Positions 1-59,185 of a DNA stretch of 64,000 bases are shown here, piece after piece. The notes under the pieces were generated by a model. It saw only the letters and a program-made list of their open reading frames with translations, was not told the origin of the DNA and made no database searches. The position numbers and the translations under genes were made by a program. How positions within the stretch are numbered: the stretch's first letter is position 1; each line of letters opens with the position of its first letter. The stretch is from Burkholderiaceae bacterium (lineage in GTDB: Bacteria > Pseudomonadota > Gammaproteobacteria > Burkholderiales > Burkholderiaceae_C): assembly GCA_919902775.1 (NCBI GenBank), contig CAKKRJ010000008.1, positions 62,001-126,000 on the forward strand, written 5' to 3'.

Positions 1-363
1 TGGCACCAGGCCCGCTTGCAGCGCGGTTTGTTCCGGCGCGCCTTCGCGCAGGGCACGTGACAAAGCCAGGCGCAGCGCGCTCCAGGCGGTGCTGCCCAGC
101 GCCATCAGGGCGTTGAGCTTGTCGCGTGCGCCGGCTTGTGCCGCGGTGGCGGCATCGCCTTGGAGCACACCCGCGTTGGCCACAGCAGCCAGGTCCAGAA
201 TCTGGTCGCCAATGGCCACGCCGCCCCGGAAGGCTTCGCCCGAGCCCTTGCGGCGGAACACCGCAAACGGCAGGTTCTGGATCGGAAAGTCGCAGCCCGG
301 TGTATTGGCCGAGCGCACCCAGCTTTGGAGCGCTGGGTGGTGGGTTTCGTTGAGCATCGTCAT
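1..363 (-). CDS. fahA: Fumarylacetoacetase, N-terminal part, cut by the left edge
   Basis: About 121 N-terminal residues are present. The start reads MTMLNETHHPALQSWV and is followed by the family-typical stretch SANTPGCDFPIQNLPFAVFRR. Known fumarylacetoacetases hydrolyse fumarylacetoacetate to fumarate and acetoacetate, the last step of homogentisate-type ring degradation. The start could be 363 or 357, because two ATGs lie two codons apart and neither has a clear Shine-Dalgarno site. It begins 10 bases after the VOC gene stop, so it is the last visible gene of the MarR/FAD-monooxygenase operon. The metal-binding C-terminal domain lies outside the window. Confidence 0.85.
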   Translation of the reverse strand, partial: MTMLNETHHPALQSWVRSANTPGCDFPIQNLPFAVFRRKGSGEAFRGGVAIGDQILDLAAVANAGVLQGDAATAAQAGARDKLNALMALGSTAWSALRLALSRALREGAPEQTALQAGLVP

Positions 364-373
364 GTGGCCGCTT

Positions 374-910
374 TCAGGAGGCCATGCTGCCATCGTGCAT
401 CCAGGCGGCGTGTTTGGGGGCGCGTTTGGTTTGGCTCCACTCTTCGAGCATGTCCCACTTCACGTCGTCGAGCTTTTGCATCATCTCGGGCGTGCCGCAG
501 TCGGCAGCCAGCTCCAGGCGGTGGCCGCTCGGGTCAAAGAAATAGATGCTCTTGAAGATGGTGTGATCCGTTGGGCCCACGACCTCGATGCCAGCGGCTT
601 CCAGTTTGGCTTTGGTGCGCAACAGGGTGTCGACCGAATCGACCTTGAGCGCCAAATGCTGCACCCAGTTGGGCGTGTTGTGGTCGCGGTCCATCGGCGG
701 CTGGCTGGGCAGCTCAAAGAAGGCGAGGATGTTGCCGTGGCCTGCATCCAGAAAAATGTGCATGTACGGGTCGGGTGCCTTGGTGGAGGGCACTTCGTTT
801 TCGGCAATGGCCAGCACGAATTTCATGTCGAGGTGCTTTTGGTACCACTCGACGGTTTCTTTGGCGTCTTTGCAACGGTAGGCCACGTGGTGAACGGATT
901 GAACGAGCAT
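374..910 (-). CDS. VOC-family (glyoxalase/extradiol dioxygenase-like) protein
   Basis: This 178-residue protein opens with the VOC fold signature VHHVAYRCKDAKETVEWYQ and carries the paired-motif pattern of metal ligands (an early HH, FFE near the middle, a later QHLALKV and HRLEL). Start 910 is chosen over 943 because AGGAG lies a few bases before its ATG. The family includes ring-cleavage dioxygenases, isomerases and glyoxalases, so the exact reaction cannot be read here. Its place between an aromatic monooxygenase and fumarylacetoacetase suggests a ring-cleavage or isomerase step in aromatic catabolism (inference). Confidence 0.75.
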   Translation of the reverse strand: MLVQSVHHVAYRCKDAKETVEWYQKHLDMKFVLAIAENEVPSTKAPDPYMHIFLDAGHGNILAFFELPSQPPMDRDHNTPNWVQHLALKVDSVDTLLRTKAKLEAAGIEVVGPTDHTIFKSIYFFDPSGHRLELAADCGTPEMMQKLDDVKWDMLEEWSQTKRAPKHAAWMHDGSMAS

Positions 911-939: not shown

Positions 940-1146
940 TCAAAGGTCTTGCAAGGCCGCAGCGATCTGCTGCTGAAACAGGTTTTCGTCGGCCAGTGCG
1001 TTGGCGTTGAGCAAGGCGAGCTTGACCAGGAACAGCTGCGCCTTGTCGGCGCCAGCCTGGTCAATGGCCGTGGCCAGTGCGTCGTAGACGGTTTCAAGCC
1101 CGTCGATGGTCAGTGCTTTGTCGGTCATGGTGGTCGGTATCTTCAT
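940..1146 (-). CDS. DUF2783 small protein
   Basis: A 68-residue acidic helical protein (YDALATAIDQAGADKAQLFLVKLALLNANALAD) that resembles DUF2783. That family is usually found beside FAD-dependent aromatic hydroxylases, as here. Its function is unknown. Start 1146 has GAAGG upstream; an internal ATG at 1128 (MTDKAL) is an alternative with a weaker site. Its ribosome-binding region lies inside a copy of dispersed repeat A that also holds the stop codon of the upstream monooxygenase gene. Confidence 0.7.
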   Translation of the reverse strand: MKIPTTMTDKALTIDGLETVYDALATAIDQAGADKAQLFLVKLALLNANALADENLFQQQIAAALQDL

Positions 1147-1172
1147 AGGTCGGTACCTTCAGGTCCGACATG
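1147..1172. repeat. Repeat A, short copy (A0)
   Basis: Read on the minus strand this is GTCGGACCTGAAGG followed by TACCGACCTATG, nearly the same as the right half of repeat A at 59275-59302. It straddles the stop codon of the monooxygenase (1159-1161) and the Shine-Dalgarno region of the DUF2783 gene, so the repeat has been absorbed into the operon's translation signals. Confidence 0.65.
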
Positions 1173-2877
1173 TGTGGTTCGGCAAGGCGTTGTCGAGGGC
1201 GGCTTGCAGCCGTGTGGCATCCAGTGTGAGCCAGCGGGCGCAGATGTGCTGGTCGGGGCGCAACAAATACGCGCCGCCCTTGGCGCCGTCATCCACCGGG
1301 ACGCCATAGCGCTGGCGCAGGTGGCCGTCGGCATCGGGCAGGGTTTGGTCGGCACCGTTCACCGCTTGGGCCGCGCCCACGGCGGTCACCTTCAGCGGCA
1401 GGCCTTGGGCGCGTGCGGTCTGGATGACCTGTTGCAGTGCGTCGGGCAAGGCGATGGCGTCGGTGAAATACAGCAGGTCAAAACCGCCACCCAGGTGGTC
1501 GAGCAAAAAGTCGTTGGCCCCGAGACGCACGTTTTGCGGTGGTGCGCCGTGGGCCGGGCCGCTCTTGAACAGGTGGTTGTCGTCGTCCCTGCTGTTGAGC
1601 ATCGAATGGCTGTATTCGTGGGGGCGCGAGGTGCGCCAGTGGTAGAGCGGGCGCACAAATTCTTGCGAGAGCGAGAGCGACAGCACCGCGTCGCGCAACA
1701 GCCGAAAGCCGGGGCTGGGCGGCGCCATGAAACGTGTGCTTTTGCCCGCTTCGGTGATGATCTCGCGGGCCGCACCCACGCGCTCGGCGCTGTGGTTGGC
1801 GAGCAGTTGTTTGCCCGCCAGGCCTTTGACGACAAAGGCCAGGTGCCAGCCCAGTGACTGCGCGTCCTGAAAAGCGGTGTTGGCCCCGCGCACCCCAAAA
1901 ATGGGCAGCAGGTGGGCCGCGTCGCCGGTGAAGATCACGCTGCCATGCACAAAGTCGGGCAGTGTCAGCGTGCGGGCGGAATAGACCGATGACCAGTCCA
2001 TCTTCCACGCGACTCCGGCATGGCCGATCATGGCCAGCTGCGCGTCGATGCGGGCCTTGAGCGAGTCCGGGTGCAGGGCTTCTTCGGGCGTTTCGCCCGC
2101 AGGCAGCTGGTAGTCCACGCGCCAGATGCCGTTCGGTTCGCGGTGCATCAGGATGGTGTTGCCGGGGTTCCAGTCGGGGTCGAAGAAAGCCAGCCGTTCG
2201 GTGGGCAGGGGCAAGTCGACCTGGATGTCGGCGATCACGAAAAAGCCTTCGTACGATGCGCCTTCCATTTGCAGGTTCATGGCGCTGCGGATGCCCGAAC
2301 GCCCACCGTCAGCCGCCACCACCCAGTCGCTCTCCAGTGCATAAGGGCCTTCGGGCGTGTCGACTTCGAGCACGGCATAGCCGTCCTTTTGATCGATTTT
2401 CTCCAGCTTGTTGCCCCAGCGGAAATCGATCAGCGGATGGGCTTGGCAGGCGTCGTGCAGGTACTCCTCCATGTACTGTTGCTGCACGTTGATGATCGGG
2501 AAGAAGCGGTCATCGGCATCGTGCGGCGCTTCCATGCGGAACACGCGTTGTCCCCGGTAGAACGAGTTGCCAAAGCGCCAGGGCAGGCCGCCCTCGGTCA
2601 TGCGGTCGGCCACACCCACTTGCTGCAGGATTTCCATCGAACGGCGCGTGAAACAGATGGCCCGACTGCCTTGAGAGAACTGCAACTCGGACGACAGCAC
2701 CACGCTGGCCACGCCGTGGCGCGCCAACTCCAGCGCCGTGACCATGCCGGCGGGGCCGGCACCCACGACCACGACTTTTTTTCTGTCTTGCGCAGGGTGT
2801 GCCGACGCCAGCCAGGGCTGGAAGACCTGGTACGGGTAGTAAATCGAAGGGCGGGCTTCTGTGGTGGGCGTGTGCAT
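1159..2877 (-). CDS. FAD-dependent aromatic monooxygenase
   Basis: This 572-residue flavoprotein hydroxylase has a Rossmann FAD motif VVVVGAGPAGMVTALELARHG near residues 35-55 and the second FAD motif FTGDAAHLLPIFGVRGANTAFQDA near residue 320. These mark group A single-component monooxygenases such as MhpA, which hydroxylate phenolic substrates with NAD(P)H and O2. The substrate cannot be read. It lies 17 bases after the marR stop, and DUF2783, VOC and fumarylacetoacetase genes follow, consistent with a catabolic operon for a phenol or hydroxyaryl acid. No signal peptide; cytoplasmic. Confidence 0.85.
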   Translation of the reverse strand: MHTPTTEARPSIYYPYQVFQPWLASAHPAQDRKKVVVVGAGPAGMVTALELARHGVASVVLSSELQFSQGSRAICFTRRSMEILQQVGVADRMTEGGLPWRFGNSFYRGQRVFRMEAPHDADDRFFPIINVQQQYMEEYLHDACQAHPLIDFRWGNKLEKIDQKDGYAVLEVDTPEGPYALESDWVVAADGGRSGIRSAMNLQMEGASYEGFFVIADIQVDLPLPTERLAFFDPDWNPGNTILMHREPNGIWRVDYQLPAGETPEEALHPDSLKARIDAQLAMIGHAGVAWKMDWSSVYSARTLTLPDFVHGSVIFTGDAAHLLPIFGVRGANTAFQDAQSLGWHLAFVVKGLAGKQLLANHSAERVGAAREIITEAGKSTRFMAPPSPGFRLLRDAVLSLSLSQEFVRPLYHWRTSRPHEYSHSMLNSRDDDNHLFKSGPAHGAPPQNVRLGANDFLLDHLGGGFDLLYFTDAIALPDALQQVIQTARAQGLPLKVTAVGAAQAVNGADQTLPDADGHLRQRYGVPVDDGAKGGAYLLRPDQHICARWLTLDATRLQAALDNALPNHTCRT

Positions 2878-2894: not shown

Positions 2895-3377
2895 TCAGCG
2901 CGGGCGGGGGGCCTTGGCAACGCCCGAGCGGGAGTCCATGACAACGCCCGGGCGGGCGTGGGCAATCAGGCGGTCAAACAGGGTGCTCAAGGTGGTTTGT
3001 TCCTTGTCCGTCAGGCAGCCAAAAATGTCCTGGTTGCGTTGGTGGACCATGGCCATGGCCCGCTCAAACACCGCGCGCCCGGGGGACGTCAGCGTCAGCA
3101 CCACGCCCCGACCATCGCCGGGGTGGTCGGCTTTGAGCACCAGGCCCTGATCGACCAAGGCCTGCGCTGCCCGGCTGGCCTGGCCCTTGTTCAGGTTGGC
3201 TTTGTCGGCCAACTCCTTGACCGACAAAGGTTCAAACGTGCCAATCGTGGTCAGGCAGCGCCCGTCGCTCATCGACAGGCCCGTGCGCTCCGGATAGACC
3301 GACTGGCTGTCCATGTCGGTCAGCTTGTGCAGTTGGTGCAGACGGTAGGTCAGCGTGCGGTCGAGTTGGATGGACAT
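2895..3377 (-). CDS. MarR-family transcriptional regulator
   Basis: 160 residues with a winged-helix core (LTTIGTFEPLSVKELADKANLNKGQASRAAQALVDQGLV, then KADHPGDGRGVVLTLTSPGR for the wing). The MSIQLDRTLTYRLHQL start at 3377 is preferred because the upstream extension has no family character. Its own promoter region holds a 20-bp palindrome of MarR operator type 49 bases upstream. It probably represses itself and the downstream monooxygenase operon, and perhaps the divergent dehalogenase gene, with release by a phenolic ligand (inference). Confidence 0.85.
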   Translation of the reverse strand: MSIQLDRTLTYRLHQLHKLTDMDSQSVYPERTGLSMSDGRCLTTIGTFEPLSVKELADKANLNKGQASRAAQALVDQGLVLKADHPGDGRGVVLTLTSPGRAVFERAMAMVHQRNQDIFGCLTDKEQTTLSTLFDRLIAHARPGVVMDSRSGVAKAPRPR

Positions 3378-3425: not shown

Positions 3426-3445
3426 TTGGTTGCGCGCGCAACTAA
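3426..3445. promoter_or_regulatory. Palindromic MarR-type operator
   Basis: The sequence TTGGTTGCGCGCGCAACTAA is a 20-bp inverted repeat with a single mismatched pair between its 10-bp arms. It resembles the TTnnTTGCnnGCAAnnAA operators bound by many MarR proteins. It lies 49 bases before the marR start and about 295 bases before the rdhA start, so direct control of marR and its operon is the strongest inference. Confidence 0.7.
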
Positions 3446-3550: not shown

Positions 3551-3559
3551 GCTTGTCGG

Positions 3560-3600
3560 GTCTGACTTTCAAACAGCTTGGTGACGCTCAGGATGATGAA
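3560..3600. repeat. Repeat C, copy 1 (upstream of rdhA)
   Basis: A 41-base stretch beginning GTCTGACTTTCA and ending GGATGATGAA. It matches the stretch at 6962-7002 in the same orientation at 32 of 41 positions by eye. The two copies bracket the reductive dehalogenase gene. Confidence 0.6.
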
Positions 3601-3739
3601 GGGCGCTTGCACAACGCGCGGGTCATTTGTAGCAGTCCGCTGGCTTACTCCCCTGTAAGATCGGCCCCCACAGGGCAGGATCAACCATTTCGGCTGCGCA
3701 GGCGAGGTCTGCGGCTGGCCGTTTTCGCGGGACTTTTCA

Positions 3740-6700
3740 ATGCGTTTGTTTTCCTACCGCAACCGTCCGGTCCATCTCGGGCCTTACCCGTTGGAGCGCC
3801 TGCAGCGCAGTGCTGAACCACCCAGTGACAGCCAGCTGCCCCCCATGCAGGCCTTGCCGTTCGGGCACGACAACCCCGAGTCGATCGCGCACGCCATGGC
3901 GCGTTACATGGCCATGTTTGACCTGGTGCGCGACGGCGCGGTCAACCCCGAAAAAGGCGACATCCCGCACGAGCTGACGGCACGTTCTGAGCACCTGAAG
4001 GCGGCCGGCTATTACTTTGACGCGACGATGATGGGGGTGGGCGCGCTGCCCGCATCTGCCCTGCTGAGCGAGCCGATCCGCAACCCCGCAGTGACGGCAC
4101 TGGGTGAAGAGTTGGTACAAAGTCAGCCGGTGAGTTTTGCGGCCGGGATGGACATGATCCTGGCCGATGTGCTCGATTCCTCGCGCAGCGTGCACGGTCC
4201 CATCGCGCACCACGGCCATGTGGTCGTGATCCTGGTGGAGTTCATGCGCGAGCCCCGAGCGGGCGAGCCCGGTTGCGAATGGCTGGGCGGCACGCAGGCG
4301 CAGCGCGCGGCGGTGTTGGCGGCGCAAACGGCCGTGCTCTTGTCCACCTATTTGCGCATGCTGGGGCACGAGGCACGCGCCCACAGCGCCAGTTGCAGCG
4401 AGCTGGATTTGGCGCGTGTGGCGCTGGCGGCCGGTTTGATCCAAGGAGATGGATCGAACCCCTATGTGGGCCATCGCTACGCGCTGGCCGCGGTCAGCAC
4501 CACGCTGGAACTGGCCCCCGACCAGGCGCTGGCGGCGCAGCAAAAGCGCTGGCAAAGCCACGGCCCGGCTTGGGTTGTGGGGCAGGGCACCTTCAAGAGT
4601 GCCTTTCACCGCGATGCCTTTGCCCGCCGTGAATTCCGCCAGGGCGCGCACCCGTTTGAAACGCTCAAACGGCGCGACACACCGACCACCTTCATCGACC
4701 ATGCGCGGGTGCCGCGCTTTCCCAAGCGCGCCGATTTTTTTGCGCGGGCCTTGTTTGGCGATCTGGGCAAGACCGTGCAAGACAGCGCCAAAAACGCGCA
4801 CTATGTGATGAAGAGCCCCATCGGCGCCTGTGCGCGGCGCGCCCTGGGCGCCTTGCTGCTCTTGCAGTTCGGGCCGGCGCGCGGCCCGGTGGCGGCCAGC
4901 ACCGCCGACCCGCAGCGCAATGCCGACAACCTCAAAGCGGCGTCGCATTACCTGGGCGTGGACGCCGTGGGTTTGTGCGCCGTGCCCGAATGGGCTTATT
5001 ACTCGCACGATGCGGGCGGCAACCCTTTGCCCGCCTACCATGCCAACGCCCTGAACCTGCTGATCGACCAGGGCCACGAAACCATGGAAGGCGCCAGCGG
5101 CGACGACTGGATTTCGGTGGCGCAAAGCATGCGGGCTTATCTGCGCTTTTCCTTGCTGGGCGGCATCATGGCCGAGCAGATTCGGCGCCTGGGTTATTCG
5201 GCCCGGGTGCACTCGGTGCTCGATGGCGATGTCTTGCAACCGCCCTTGCTCTTGCTGTCTGGCTTGGGCGAGGTCAGCCGCATCGGTGAAGTCATCCTCA
5301 ACCCCTTTCTGGGCCCGCGCCTGAAAAGCGGCTGCGTCACCACCGACATGCCGATGGCCGCCGACCGGCCGATTGACTTTGGCCTGCAAAGCTTTTGCGA
5401 AAACTGCAACAAGTGCGCACGCGAATGCCCTTCGGGGGCCATCACGGCAGGCCCCAAGCTGATGTACAACGGCTACGAAATCTGGAAGAGCGATGCCGAA
5501 AAATGCGCCCGTTACCGCATCACCAATGCGGCCGGTGGCATGTGTGGGCGCTGCATGAAGACCTGCCCCTGGAACCTCGAAGGGCTGCTGGCCGACAGCC
5601 TGTGGCGCACGCTGGCGATGAAGCTGCCGGCCGCCGCACCAGCGCTGGCGCGGCTCGATGATGTGTTGAATCGCGGCAGCATCAACCCGGTCAAGAAATG
5701 GTGGTGGGACATCGAACTGGACAAGCGCACCGGGCGCTATGTCCAGGCGGCGCAAACCCACCGCCGGGGGCTGCAAAAAGACCTGCAACTGCGCTACGAA
5801 GACCAGACCCTGGCGGTGTACCCGGCGGACAAAATGCCGCCGCCGTATCCGCTGGCGTTTCCGGTCAACCGGGAAGAGGGCATTGCCCGCTACAAAACGC
5901 TGCTGACGCCTGCGCAATACCAGGCCCGGCTGGCCGCCGGTCAGACCGAGGGCCTGGCCCCCGGGCCGCAAGCGCTGCAAGGCGAGCCGCCGGTGTTCCC
6001 TGTGGTTTTGCAACGCCGCGAAGAGATGGCCGAGGGCTTGGCGCGTTACGAGTTCATCGCACCCGATGGCCAGGCGCTGCCGCCGTTTGAGGCCGGCGGC
6101 CACATCGATGTGGTGATCGCGCCCGAGTACCAGCGTTCCTACAGCCTGGCGGGCGACCCGGCCGACCGCAGCCGCTATGTGCTGGGCGTGTTGCGCGAGT
6201 CGCCCGAGCAGGGCGGGCGTGGCGGCTCGGCGCTGATGCACCGCGTCTTTCGCGAAGGGCGTCGGGTCTTTGTGAGCCGGCCGGTCAACCACTTTGCCTT
6301 GCACGAAGAGGCCACGCACAGCTGCTTGTTCGCTGGCGGCATTGGCGTCACGCCGCTGCTCGCCATGGCGCACCGCTTGCATGCTTTGGGCAAACCCTTT
6401 GACTTTCACTACAGCGCCGCCAGCCGCCACAGCGCCGGCTTTTTGAAAGACCTGGACCAAGCGCCCTGGCGTGAGCGCGTTCACTGCCACTTCAAGGACG
6501 AGGGCCAGCGCGCCGATCTGGCGCAAGTGCTGCCCCGCTATGCGCCTGGCCAACACCTCTACACCTGTGGCTCGGCGCGTTACATGGACGGGGTGTTCGA
6601 AGCGGCCCTGGCGCACGCCTGGCCCGAAGACGCCCTGCACCGCGAATATTTCAGCGTGCCCGATGCCGATGCCTGGGTGAACCACCCCTTCGAATTGGAA

Positions 6701-6958
6701 CTGAAGGACTCCGGGCGCCGCCTGAGTGTGCCCGCCGACCGCACGGCCACGGATGTGCTGATCGATGCGGGCATCGCGGTCGATGTCAAATGCAGCGACG
6801 GGCTGTGCGGCGTCTGCGCCCGGCCCTACGATGCGGCGACTTCGGACGAGATCGAGCACCGCGACTTCGTCTTGAGCCAGGCCGAGCGCCAACACAAAAT
6901 CGTCTTGTGCTGCTCGCGCGCCAAGCACGCGGGCGGCGTGATCGAATTGGCGCTGTGA
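3740..6958 (+). CDS. rdhA: Self-sufficient catabolic reductive dehalogenase (RdhA-reductase fusion)
   Basis: A 1072-residue protein. Residues 1 to about 640 form a reductive dehalogenase core with two [4Fe-4S] motifs: C553-x2-C556-x2-C559-x3-C563-P, and C589 with C602-x2-C605-x3-C609-P. Residues from about 750 form a phthalate dioxygenase reductase-like module: FMN motif RSYSL at 799-803, NAD motif AGGIGVTP near 865-872, and a C-terminal plant-type [2Fe-2S] site (C1018, C1023, C1026, C1057 or C1058). Known relatives (BhbA, NpRdhA) remove halogen from halophenols or halohydroxybenzoates using cobalamin. There is no Tat signal and no rdhB anchor gene, so it should be cytoplasmic and catabolic, not respiratory. 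It is divergent from a MarR-controlled aromatic operon. The substrate is unknown. Confidence 0.92.
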   Translation: MRLFSYRNRPVHLGPYPLERLQRSAEPPSDSQLPPMQALPFGHDNPESIAHAMARYMAMFDLVRDGAVNPEKGDIPHELTARSEHLKAAGYYFDATMMGVGALPASALLSEPIRNPAVTALGEELVQSQPVSFAAGMDMILADVLDSSRSVHGPIAHHGHVVVILVEFMREPRAGEPGCEWLGGTQAQRAAVLAAQTAVLLSTYLRMLGHEARAHSASCSELDLARVALAAGLIQGDGSNPYVGHRYALAAVSTTLELAPDQALAAQQKRWQSHGPAWVVGQGTFKSAFHRDAFARREFRQGAHPFETLKRRDTPTTFIDHARVPRFPKRADFFARALFGDLGKTVQDSAKNAHYVMKSPIGACARRALGALLLLQFGPARGPVAASTADPQRNADNLKAASHYLGVDAVGLCAVPEWAYYSHDAGGNPLPAYHANALNLLIDQGHETMEGASGDDWISVAQSMRAYLRFSLLGGIMAEQIRRLGYSARVHSVLDGDVLQPPLLLLSGLGEVSRIGEVILNPFLGPRLKSGCVTTDMPMAADRPIDFGLQSFCENCNKCARECPSGAITAGPKLMYNGYEIWKSDAEKCARYRITNAAGGMCGRCMKTCPWNLEGLLADSLWRTLAMKLPAAAPALARLDDVLNRGSINPVKKWWWDIELDKRTGRYVQAAQTHRRGLQKDLQLRYEDQTLAVYPADKMPPPYPLAFPVNREEGIARYKTLLTPAQYQARLAAGQTEGLAPGPQALQGEPPVFPVVLQRREEMAEGLARYEFIAPDGQALPPFEAGGHIDVVIAPEYQRSYSLAGDPADRSRYVLGVLRESPEQGGRGGSALMHRVFREGRRVFVSRPVNHFALHEEATHSCLFAGGIGVTPLLAMAHRLHALGKPFDFHYSAASRHSAGFLKDLDQAPWRERVHCHFKDEGQRADLAQVLPRYAPGQHLYTCGSARYMDGVFEAALAHAWPEDALHREYFSVPDADAWVNHPFELELKDSGRRLSVPADRTATDVLIDAGIAVDVKCSDGLCGVCARPYDAATSDEIEHRDFVLSQAERQHKIVLCCSRAKHAGGVIELAL

Positions 6959-6961
6959 GGG

Positions 6962-7006
6962 GCCTGACTTTCATGTAGCTGGGCGACGCCTCGGATGATG
7001 AAAGTC
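6962..7006. repeat. Repeat C, copy 2 (downstream of rdhA)
   Basis: Begins four bases after the rdhA stop. The outer arms GACTTTCAT (6966-6974) and ATGAAAGTC (6998-7006) are exact complements, so the transcript could form a 9-bp stem. There is no U-run, so it is not a standard intrinsic terminator. The same sequence in diverged form lies upstream of rdhA. Confidence 0.6.
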
Positions 7007-7141: not shown

Positions 7142-8650
7142 TCAGAAGCGTTCCAGCTCCGGGTGTTTGATTTGCCCGGCCCGCACCAGCATCTTGCCGT
7201 ACTCGGCGCAGCGGTGGAGGGTGGGGATCACCTTGCCGGGATTGAGCAGGCCTTGTGGGTCAAAGGCGCGCTTGAGGCCGAACATCTGCGCGTTTTCTTC
7301 GGCGGAAAACTGCACGCACATGCTGTTCAGTTTCTCGATGCCCACGCCGTGTTCGCCCGTGACGGTGCCGCCCATGGCCACGCTGGTTTCCAGAATGTCG
7401 GCACCAAACAGTTCGCAGCGGTGCAGCTGGTCGGGGTCGTTGGCATCGAACAGGATCAGCGGGTGCAGGTTGCCGTCGCCCGCGTGGAAGACGTTGAGGC
7501 AGCGGAGTTGGTATTTCTTTTCCATCTCCGAGATGGCTTGCAGGATGTCGGCCAGACGCTTGCGCGGGATGGTCGAGTCCATGCACATGTAGTCGGGACT
7601 GATGCGACCCGAAGCGGGGAAGGCGTTTTTACGACCGCTCCAGAACTTCATGCGCTGGGCTTCGTCGCGGCTCACGGTGATGGCCGTGGCGCCGCAGTTG
7701 CGCAGCACTTCGCTCATGCGGCCGATTTCCTCTTCGACCTCTTCGGGCGTGCCATCGCTCTCGCACAGCAAGATGGCCGCTGCGCTCAGGTCGTAGTCGG
7801 CGTGCACAAAGTCTTCGACGGCGACGGTCATCGGGCCGTCCATCATCTCCAGCCCGGCGGGGATGATGCCGGCTGCAATCACCGCGGCCACAGCTTCACC
7901 GGCTTTGCGCACGTCGTCAAAGCTGGCCATGATGCAGCGCGCCAGTTGGGGTTGGGGCACCAGCTTGACGGTGACTTCGGTGGCCACGGCCAGCATGCCT
8001 TCGCTGCCCACCAGCACGGCCAGCAGGTCGTAGCCGGAGGTGTCGAGCGCATCGCTGCCAAATTCGATCGGATCGCCTTCGATGGTGAAGCCGCGCACCT
8101 TGAGCACGTTGTGCACCGTCAGGCCGTATTTGAGGCAGTGCACGCCGCCCGAGTTTTCGGCCACGTTGCCACCGATGGTGCAGGCGATCTGGCTGGACGG
8201 GTCGGGCGCGTAGTACAGGCCATAAGGCGCAGCGGCCTCACTGATGGCCAGGTTGCGCACGCCGCACTGCACGACCGCCGTGCGGCTGACCGGGTCCACG
8301 GTCTTGATCTGGTTGAAGCGAGCCATCGACAGCGTCACGCCCATGCGGTGCGGCATGGCCCCCCCCGACAGGCCAGTGCCTGCGCCGCGTGCGACCACGG
8401 GCACTTGCAGGGCGTGACAGACCTGGAGCGCGGCTTGTACCTGCGTTTCGTTTTCAGGCAGGGCCACCACCAAAGGCCGTTCGCGGTAGGCGGTCAGGCC
8501 GTCGCATTCATAGGGCGTGGTGTCTTCAGCGGTGTACAGGATGGCGTCGGCGGGCAGCACCCTGCCCAAAGCCTGCACCACAGCGCGTTGGCGCTCGGCG
8601 CGTTCGGTGGTGGTCAGTGGGGGTGTTTTGGCAGGGGTGCTGGCGCTCAT
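7142..8650 (-). CDS. glcD: Glycolate oxidase FAD-binding subunit GlcD
   Basis: A 502-residue FAD-linked oxidase. The PCMH-type FAD domain carries PVVARGAGTGLSGGAMPHR and IGGNVAENSGG; the C-terminal half carries FHAGDGNLHPLILFD and GTVTGEHGVG, all typical of GlcD, which oxidises glycolate (or D-lactate) to glyoxylate. Start 8650 (MSASTPAK) has AGG upstream and fits family length better than 8692. GlcE and GlcF are not adjacent: the downstream neighbour is the repeat-filled gap, so partners must be elsewhere. Confidence 0.88.
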   Translation of the reverse strand: MSASTPAKTPPLTTTERAERQRAVVQALGRVLPADAILYTAEDTTPYECDGLTAYRERPLVVALPENETQVQAALQVCHALQVPVVARGAGTGLSGGAMPHRMGVTLSMARFNQIKTVDPVSRTAVVQCGVRNLAISEAAAPYGLYYAPDPSSQIACTIGGNVAENSGGVHCLKYGLTVHNVLKVRGFTIEGDPIEFGSDALDTSGYDLLAVLVGSEGMLAVATEVTVKLVPQPQLARCIMASFDDVRKAGEAVAAVIAAGIIPAGLEMMDGPMTVAVEDFVHADYDLSAAAILLCESDGTPEEVEEEIGRMSEVLRNCGATAITVSRDEAQRMKFWSGRKNAFPASGRISPDYMCMDSTIPRKRLADILQAISEMEKKYQLRCLNVFHAGDGNLHPLILFDANDPDQLHRCELFGADILETSVAMGGTVTGEHGVGIEKLNSMCVQFSAEENAQMFGLKRAFDPQGLLNPGKVIPTLHRCAEYGKMLVRAGQIKHPELERF

Positions 8651-57444: not shown

Positions 57445-58710
57445 ATGACCGAACACCCCATTCACTGGGAAACGGAGGGCACCAGCCGCATTCCGTTTGC
57501 CGTGTACACCGACGAAGACCGGCACAAAAAAGAGCTGGAGCGCTTCTTCTATCAAAGCCATTGGAGCTATGTGGGCCTGGAGGCCGAGATCCCGAATCCC
57601 GGCGACTTCAAGCGCACCGTGGTGGGCGAGCGTTCGGTCATCATGACGCGCAGCAACGACGGCCAGATCCACGTGGTGGAAAACGTCTGCGCTCACCGGG
57701 GCATGCAGTTTTGCCGTGAGCGCCATGGCAACAAAAAAGAGTTTGTCTGCCCTTACCACCAGTGGAGCTACACCCTGCAAGGTGGTTTGCAGGGCGTGCC
57801 GTTTCGGCGTGGCGTGCGGCAAGACGGCAAGGTCAACGGCGGCATGCCGGCCGACTTTGACCCGAAAGACCACGGCCTCACGCCGCTGAAGGTGGCGACG
57901 CGCGGTGGCGTGGTGTTCGCGTCGTTTGACCACGCGGTGGAGTCGCTGGAAGACTTCATGGGCCCGACCATCTTGAAATACTTTGACCGCCTGTTCAATG
58001 GCCGCAAGCTGGTGGTGCTGGGCTACAACCGCCAGCGCATTCCGGGCAACTGGAAGCTGATGCAGGAAAACATCAAGGACCCGTACCACCCCGGCCTGCT
58101 GCACACCTGGTTTGTGACTTTTGGTCTTTGGCGTGCCGACAACAAGAGCGAGTTGCGCATGGACGCGCACCACCGCCATGCGGCCATGATCTCAACACGC
58201 GGCAGTGCGGGCCAGGCCACGGGCGCTGCGGCGCAGGTCACGCAGGTGAGCAGCTTCAAGGAGAGCATGCAGCTGAATGACCCGAGCTTTCTGGACATCG
58301 TGCCCGAAGCCTGGTGGCAGATGGACGACAAGATGCCGACCGCCGTGATGATGACGCTGTTCCCCAGCGTGATTTTTCAGCAGCAGGTCAACAGCGTGTC
58401 CACGCGCCACATCCAGCCCGACGGGCATGGCGCGTTCGACTTTGTCTGGACGCACTTTGGCTTTGAAGACGACACGCCCGAAATGCACGAGCGCCGCCTG
58501 CGTCAGGCCAACCTGTTTGGTCCGGCCGGTTTTGTGAGCGCGGACGATGGCGAGGTGATCGAGTTCTCGCAGCAGGCGTTTGAGTCCAAACCCGAGCACC
58601 ATATGTTGGTGGAGTTGGGCGGGCGCGATGTGGGTGAGACGGACCACATGGTGACCGAAACGCTGATCCGGGGCATGTATGCCTACTGGCGCAAAGTGAT
58701 GGAGGCTTGA
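57445..58710 (+). CDS. Rieske aromatic ring-hydroxylating oxygenase, alpha subunit
   Basis: 421 residues. Rieske [2Fe-2S] motif CAHRGMQFC ... CPYHQW (C-x-H ... C-x2-H) near residues 83-110 and a C-terminal catalytic domain with the non-haem iron ligands in [16 protein letters not shown]. It resembles salicylate 5-hydroxylase (NagG) and related acid hydroxylases; the true substrate is not readable. AGAGACACC precedes the ATG. Followed by beta subunit and ferredoxin genes; no reductase gene is present. Confidence 0.88.
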
Positions 58711-58711
58711 T

Positions 58712-59185
58712 ATGGTCGATATGAATACCTGGTTCGGCATCCAGCAGCTGTATGCCGATTACGCCAGCGCCGTGGACAGCGGCGATTGGGACCTGTGGCC
58801 CGAGTTCTTCACCGAGCAAGGTGTGTACAAACTGCAGCCGCGCGAGAACCACGAGCGCGGTTTTCCGCTGTGCACGCTGTCGCTGACCAGCAAAGGCATG
58901 CTCAAAGACCGCGTCTATGGCATCAAGGAAACGCTGTACCACGACCCGTATTACCAGCGCCATGTGGTGGGTGCGCCCATCGTGCGACGCGTCGAAGACG
59001 GGCGCATCCACAGCGAGGCCAACTACGCGGTGTTTCGCACCAAGTTCGACAAGGAAAGCACGGTGTTCAATGTGGGTCGCTACATCGACACCATCGTGCA
59101 CACCCCCGAAGGCTTCAAATTCGCCGAGCGCCTGTGCGTGTACGACAGCGAGATGATCCCCAACTCCATCATTTACCCCATATAA
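58712..59185 (+). CDS. Rieske oxygenase, beta subunit
   Basis: 157 residues of the SnoaL/NTF2-like beta subunit fold: [37 protein letters not shown] and a C-terminal [17 protein letters not shown], the usual end of NagH-type subunits. It starts one base after the alpha subunit stop. Structural role in the hexamer. Confidence 0.88.

Follow-up and report, generated by a model that had tools for sequence, protein, structure and literature searches.

We analyzed a 64,000-nucleotide stretch of a Burkholderiaceae genome (GenBank assembly GCA_919902775.1, contig CAKKRJ010000008.1, positions 62,001 to 126,000 of the forward strand), hereafter the window, and found that it carries rdhA, a gene coding for a dehalogenase fused to its own reductase. 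Its product is most probably (at roughly 88%) a catabolic reductive dehalogenase of the BhbA/JtRdhA type that is cytosolic, tolerates oxygen and works by the mechanism outlined below, and rdhA itself would have entered the junction that it now occupies. The assignment rests on which domains, cofactor residues and active-site residues the protein has, on its predicted fold and on its relationships; the chemistry, the use of NADPH and activity in air are extrapolated from NpRdhA and JtRdhA. The gene and the parts of its product are as follows.

3740..6958, + strand: rdhA fused to a phthalate dioxygenase reductase gene, self-sufficient catabolic reductive dehalogenase, 1072 amino acids (ATG start; open reading frame (ORF) list, profile and structure matches)
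3740..5959, + strand: reductive dehalogenase part, residues 1-740, including its N-terminal half
4085..4210, + strand: 42-residue insert, residues 116-157, without counterpart in NpRdhA (alignment)
5117..5119, + strand: V460, equivalent to NpRdhA A419 in the second-halogen pocket (alignment)
5138..5140, + strand: Y467, equivalent to NpRdhA Y426, proton donor (alignment and 4ras match)
5324..5326, + strand: K529, equivalent to NpRdhA K488 (alignment and 4ras match)
5396..5428, + strand: first [4Fe-4S] motif, C553-x2-C556-x2-C559-x3-C563 (Pfam and alignment)
5504..5566, + strand: second [4Fe-4S] motif, C589 ... C602-x2-C605-x3-C609 (Pfam and alignment)
5516-5518, + strand: R593, equivalent to NpRdhA R552, inside the second [4Fe-4S] motif (alignment)
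5984..6955, + strand: phthalate dioxygenase reductase module, residues 749-1072 (2pia match and motifs)

The antisense ORF at 3737..6928 we take for a shadow of the high-GC rdhA gene.

Profile searches placed the protein in the NCBIfam reductive dehalogenase family TIGR02486 (169.1 bits for a cut-off of 160.35), and PF12838 and PF13484 exceeded their cut-offs in the [4Fe-4S] region. The NpRdhA structure 4ras was matched at 548.2 bits over residues 1-103 and 157-733, and the phthalate dioxygenase reductase structure 2pia at 190.6 bits over residues 757-1069; both scores are far above chance, and the two matches lie in series in one chain. Furthermore, the N-terminal half of the dehalogenase part superposes on the vestigial duplicated cobalamin-binding domain of NpRdhA. 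An epoxyqueuosine reductase (QueG)-like protein, or another class III cobalamin enzyme that is no dehalogenase, would have the cobalamin and the double-cluster core in common with this protein, which does give a weak match to the QueG family TIGR00276. However, this match reached 23.6 bits for a cut-off of 200, far below the TIGR02486 score and not above it as the sequence-only reading had allowed for, and the tested dehalogenation residues of NpRdhA are kept. We therefore rejected a QueG-like identity, the probability of which we regard as negligible. No QueG row stood among the 50 matches listed by VIA-align, which is not evidence of absence.

The conserved residues were read from an alignment of 90 rows, made up of the window protein, 88 fused relatives (89 fused proteins in all) and NpRdhA. 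The relatives came from 80 loci, five plasmid copies and three family members, one of these three being identical to one of the 80; the loci are the best 80 of 447, and the set stops short of more distant relatives, probably including the Jhaorihella enzyme. C553, C556, C559, C563, C589, C602, C605 and C609 are identical in 90/90 rows, NpRdhA included, and the two [4Fe-4S] motifs are thus exactly those described from the sequence. Residues F291, S422, M423, Y426, K488 and R552 of NpRdhA, which correspond to F334, S463, M464, Y467, K529 and R593 of the window protein, are identical in 89/89 fused proteins, so that the Tyr/Lys/Arg active-site set singled out for checking is kept throughout. Within the reductase module, the FMN and NAD(P)H domains span residues ~749-974 and the [2Fe-2S] domain ~984-1072, and the motifs announced for all three are present: R799-x-Y801-S802 for FMN, 866-GGIGVTP-872 for the nucleotide, and cysteines 1018/1023/1026/1057 for the cluster. 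R799, S802, G867-I868-G869, T871-P872 and the four [2Fe-2S] cysteines are identical in 89/89 fused proteins, residue 801 is Y in 73 of them and F in 16, residue 866 is G in 88, and residues 800 and 870 vary. The insert at residues 116-157 measures 41 or 42 residues in every fused protein and is absent from NpRdhA; for JtRdhA, PMC10463259 reports a fusion-specific insert that lies over its active site. As predicted, the protein has no Tat signal of the kind that marks respiratory RdhAs, for no twin arginine occurs within its first 40 residues. The genes called around rdhA include none that looks like rdhB, although no profile search was aimed at rdhB.

By analogy with NpRdhA and JtRdhA, NAD(P)H would pass a hydride to FMN, from which electrons would travel through the [2Fe-2S] cluster and the two [4Fe-4S] clusters to base-off cobalamin. 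An ortho-halogenated phenol would then bind halogen-first at the cobalt and lose its halide, with Tyr467, assisted by Lys529 and Arg593, delivering the proton. As the substrate we favor a natural phenol or 4-hydroxyaryl acid halogenated in the ortho position, which may be chlorinated or may only be brominated or iodinated. Cobalamin uptake by the host is likely, given a cobalamin riboswitch (69 bits, C6:128690-128936, the only one found) directly before a TonB receptor gene, with putative btuF, btuC, btuD and cobQ nearby.

Several observations count against this assignment. The Pfam Dehalogenase family PF13486 gave no match to the rdhA product at E<=1 and none in the whole genome of the host; the control genomes also gave none, and since fold, residues and TIGR02486 all gave a positive result, we did not let this single model decide on membership of the catabolic class. 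In the AlphaFold2 model, the root-mean-square deviation from 2pia is 12.4 over the whole reductase, indicating that its subdomains are placed differently and that the inter-module electron path is not reliably modelled. Furthermore, the B12 genes, except the TonB receptor gene, were named by eye only, and we found no activity data for the window protein or for the 36-row clade to which it belongs (see below).

The closest characterized counterpart is BhbA, the 3,5-dibromo-4-hydroxybenzoate reductive dehalogenase of plasmid pBHB of Comamonas sp. 7D-2, which has the same full-length one-chain architecture (50.4% identity), the same six catalytic or binding residues and the same Fe-S cysteines. 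It differs in its halogen pocket and in its gene neighbors, which are protocatechuate 4,5-dioxygenase genes that rdhA of the window lacks. JtRdhA of Jhaorihella thermophila, as described in the available text of PMC10463259, is likewise a self-sufficient fusion of the two enzymes without Tat signal and with the Tyr/Lys/Arg set. Unlike the window protein, it comes from a marine host; it is driven by NADPH and works in air on brominated and iodinated phenols but, according to the same text, on none of the chlorinated compounds tested. NpRdhA of Nitratireductor pacificus (PDB 4ras, 6zxu) has neither the fused reductase nor the insert. The nearest relatives are the Limnohabitans-type fused proteins of loci L007-L017, which share 85-86% full-length identity and the same pocket with the window protein. 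PMC10463259 describes self-sufficient catabolic RdhAs, names BhbA as the first catabolic RdhA, and states that detailed study has been limited to a single self-sufficient reductive dehalogenase and that the bromine limit of the class is unclear. The fused architecture is therefore already published, and the window enzyme adds another member. The Fe-S motifs of a marine Roseobacter debrominase lie near residues 283-345 according to the text seen of PMC13101508, and we infer that this enzyme is of a shorter type. Titles and abstract openings retrieved for Limnohabitans and dehalogenase named no reductive dehalogenase of Limnohabitans. With the present assignment, relatives of a common lake genus would be capable of B12-dependent dehalogenation that tolerates oxygen.

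The sequence-only reading had further proposed that the dehalogenated product is handed to the adjacent operon and that this neighborhood may define a new substrate. Whereas the enzyme identity and the mechanism class that it assigned are borne out by TIGR02486, 4ras and the alignment, this second part was not supported. The genes concerned are the following.

2895..3377, - strand: MarR-type regulator, first gene of the operon, divergent from rdhA (profile matches)
1159..2877, - strand: FAD aromatic monooxygenase of the PRK08132 subfamily (569.4 bits, cut-off 416)
940..1128, - strand: small 62-residue operon protein reaching no curated cut-off
374..910, - strand: VOC-fold operon protein
1..363, - strand: start of the fumarylacetoacetase gene (TIGR01266, 550.5 bits), which extends beyond the window upstream (L001:15038-16363)
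7142..8650, - strand: GlcD-like FAD-linked oxidase, which adjoins the MarR gene in sister loci without rdhA

If rdhA were a functional part of this pathway, the dehalogenated phenol would be hydroxylated, cleaved and hydrolyzed there. The operon does look like an unassigned, homogentisate-like ring-cleavage route (monooxygenase, 62-residue protein, VOC protein and fumarylacetoacetase), with the VOC protein perhaps acting as its dioxygenase. The fumarylacetoacetase is a true one and hmgA was not found in the host genome, which is 84% complete; the route could thus take a new substrate. Moreover, rdhA stands head-to-head with the MarR gene, and the palindrome GTTGCGCGCGCAAC at 3429-3442, upstream of the MarR gene, is likely a MarR operator in the upstream region that the two genes share. 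The form GTTGC-N4-GCAAC recurs upstream of MarR in 5/5 sister loci examined. Related monooxygenase, VOC and fumarylacetoacetase genes stand with maiA in an Acinetobacter plasmid, which also speaks for a route of this kind.

However, the distribution of the two gene sets argues against a shared pathway. A monooxygenase orthologue (identity of at least 67%, counted by hand) is present in 73/90 genomes of the genus, the automatic tally of 79/90 including a paralogue of 37-41% identity, whereas rdhA occurs in 17/90 genus genomes and 5/299 family genomes. A VOC relative was tallied in 171/349 family genomes, paralogues possibly included. The monooxygenase was found in 15/17 genomes with rdhA and in 58/73 without it, and there is thus no association between the two genes. 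Both genes are present in 14 other genomes, where they lie on different draft contigs (13 genomes, in each of which a contig break between them is possible) or 1.47 Mb apart (G305). Furthermore, no VOC or fumarylacetoacetase orthologue occurs in the flanks covered for the 85 other rdhA loci, of which 50 are flanked by 5 kb or more on each side; a monooxygenase of this family, with 24-39% identity, occurs in three. The table of rdhA neighbors covers 75/85 loci; no rdhA was called in five (L033, L042, L069, L080, L084) and the remaining five are absent from it.

Among the rdhA positions in genomes of the genus, some match named Limnohabitans records base for base (e.g., G314:C1:864923 is L012 and G317:C1:219346 is L016), which places the host in the same group as Limnohabitans. 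Of the 16 other rdhA genomes, eleven can be equated with L007-L017 by their coordinates, and L156 gave access to a twelfth. In these twelve, a short-chain dehydrogenase/reductase (SDR) gene follows rdhA and no operon of the MarR/monooxygenase type is present in the stretch covered; L007-L017 also carry a small gene that, by eye, resembles NIPSNAP. Two other members of the genus (L155 and L158) have a second monooxygenase (~38% identical) at ~13-18 kb from rdhA, accompanied by a small gene and a VOC gene of its own; by coordinates it is within 40 kb of rdhA in 9/16 other rdhA genomes.

The junction itself gave a concordant picture. In 5/6 sister loci, the GlcD-like gene, MarR, the monooxygenase, the 62-residue gene and fumarylacetoacetase are arranged as in the window but with no rdhA among them; L146, one of these five, is also without the VOC gene at this place, and in the sixth (L144) the operon lies elsewhere. 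The interval between GlcD and MarR is 3764 bp in the window; of the sister loci, two have 155 bp there, two a Y1-transposase-like ORF and one an HSDR_N-like ORF, these ORFs belonging to L145, L146 and L147. The junction is apparently a small insertion hot spot, and sister junctions of variable content that lack rdhA are what an insertion of rdhA there would give. Most likely, then, rdhA entered a variable junction beside an aromatic operon common in the genus, loss of rdhA from the sister lineages being the less simple alternative. Such an entry means that the operon does not name the substrate. We therefore rejected the operon as a pathway marker, as it occurs across the genus without rdhA, is unlinked to it in other rdhA genomes and has junctions that lack it; participation of rdhA in this pathway appears very unlikely. 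The neighborhood thus carries a warning, namely that the operon beside rdhA is probably not its pathway by descent.

Two copies of a dispersed repeat bracket rdhA.

3558..3600, + strand: dispersed genome repeat, 5' side of rdhA (pattern search)
6960..7002, + strand: second copy of this repeat, separated from the rdhA stop codon by one base (pattern search)

The repeat has six matches in the host genome, these two included, and the reversed control pattern has none; the other four (C1:56317, C2:392483, C4:165347, C4:203006) lie between ordinary genes. The 3' copy contains a 10-bp inverted repeat. An integron attC identity, compared by eye, was dropped in view of the four further copies; the repeat may be of the repetitive extragenic palindromic type and a former recombination site. 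The usual Limnohabitans rdhA site was sought in the host genome through a single marker gene, which was not found and shows nothing at 84% completeness. No Rfam RNA reached its gathering threshold in the window, a sigma-70 promoter scan around rdhA found none (0.4 in shuffles), and terminator-like sites there were as frequent as in shuffles (5 vs 4.5) and hence uninformative.

We next consider the halogen. At the positions equivalent to NpRdhA 290/310/311/419/452, the pocket reads F-Y-V-V-V in the window protein, F-F-P-A-N in NpRdhA and F-S-V-S-A in BhbA; position 419 (V460 here) is V in 73/89 fused proteins. In a quick IQ-TREE search without bootstrap, branch support being given as SH-like approximate likelihood ratios (SH-aLRT), the window protein groups with 11 Limnohabitans-type sequences (SH-aLRT 100) in a 36-row, mostly betaproteobacterial clade (SH-aLRT 99; two rows, L039 and L045, are not so labelled), every row of which has F-Y-V-V-V. 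The fused rdhA of L031, a metagenome bin labelled Bordetella parapertussis, groups with bins of uncultured Burkholderiales or betaproteobacteria, and this label is doubtful. The sister alphaproteobacterial clade has F-Y-V-V-V in 14/18 rows, and the other main clade has M at 290 in 31 of 32 rows. Judged from record titles and general background, the hosts of the M-290 clade appear to be mostly marine Alphaproteobacteria.

According to the available text of PMC7565698, residue 419 of NpRdhA lines the second-halogen pocket, the A419M substitution shifts preference to mono-halogenated substrates, and the wild-type enzyme also accepts chlorinated ones. A phenylalanine at 290, as in NpRdhA, together with a valine at 419 that narrows the second-halogen pocket could suggest that the F-Y-V-V-V enzymes, including the whole 36-row clade, form a chlorine-using branch of mono-chlorophenol reductases for natural chlorinated phenolics, and that the M-290 clade handles bromine and iodine. 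We regard this proposal as rather doubtful. F-Y-V-V-V also occurs outside the betaproteobacterial clade, its carriers in the sister clade include marine-sounding hosts, and a plant-associated Aminobacter has M at 290; with pocket and descent confounded and habitat fitting only in part, the proposal stays a hypothesis. If it were true, natural organochlorine would have an aerobic, B12-dependent sink in part of the common lake genus Limnohabitans. A clade with a different and uniform pocket offers a direct test of whether the self-sufficient class is bromine-limited or not.

Two other fates of the product were weighed. A homoprotocatechuate (hpa) cluster ends ~14 kb upstream of rdhA on the same contig; in it, HpaG, HpaE, HpaD and HpaI exceed their NCBIfam cut-offs and CHMI exceeds that of Pfam, and hpaR, hpaG1 and hpaH were read by eye. 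The dehalogenated product could be 4-hydroxyphenylacetate or a relative that feeds this cluster. According to PMC10463259, the rate of JtRdhA with 3-bromo-4-hydroxyphenylacetate is 99% of that with its best substrate, and E. coli W equipped with the enzyme grows on this compound through the 4-hydroxyphenylacetate pathway. However, HpaB (PF03241) was not found in the 84% complete genome, the genes between the cluster and rdhA look unrelated, and the flanks of other rdhA genes show HpaE-family proteins at 29-39%, one HpaG at 40% and one HpaI at 58% (L026) but no such hpa cluster. The link is attractive but weak, and this outlet seems unlikely.

Alternatively, the enzyme might mainly detoxify mixed natural or man-made halophenols and be tied to no single catabolic pathway, a role that would explain its changing neighbors. 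The SDR gene lies directly downstream in 11/11 of the loci L007-L017, a tripartite ATP-independent periplasmic (TRAP) transporter and MarR accompany rdhA in five alphaproteobacterial loci (L002, L051, L066, L072, L075), and protocatechuate cleavage genes lie beside BhbA and the Nitratireductor OM-1 copy; the patchy presence of rdhA in the genus points the same way. Conversely, uptake genes (TRAP, tripartite-tricarboxylate receptors) recur beside rdhA, suggesting that the substrate is taken up on purpose, and BhbA is catabolic. Detoxification is thus a possible role, which we hold with reservation, and a catabolic dehalogenase remains our preferred reading. Elsewhere in the window, genes for the alpha and beta subunits of a ring-hydroxylating dioxygenase (PF00355, PF00848, PF00866) lie at 57445-59185.

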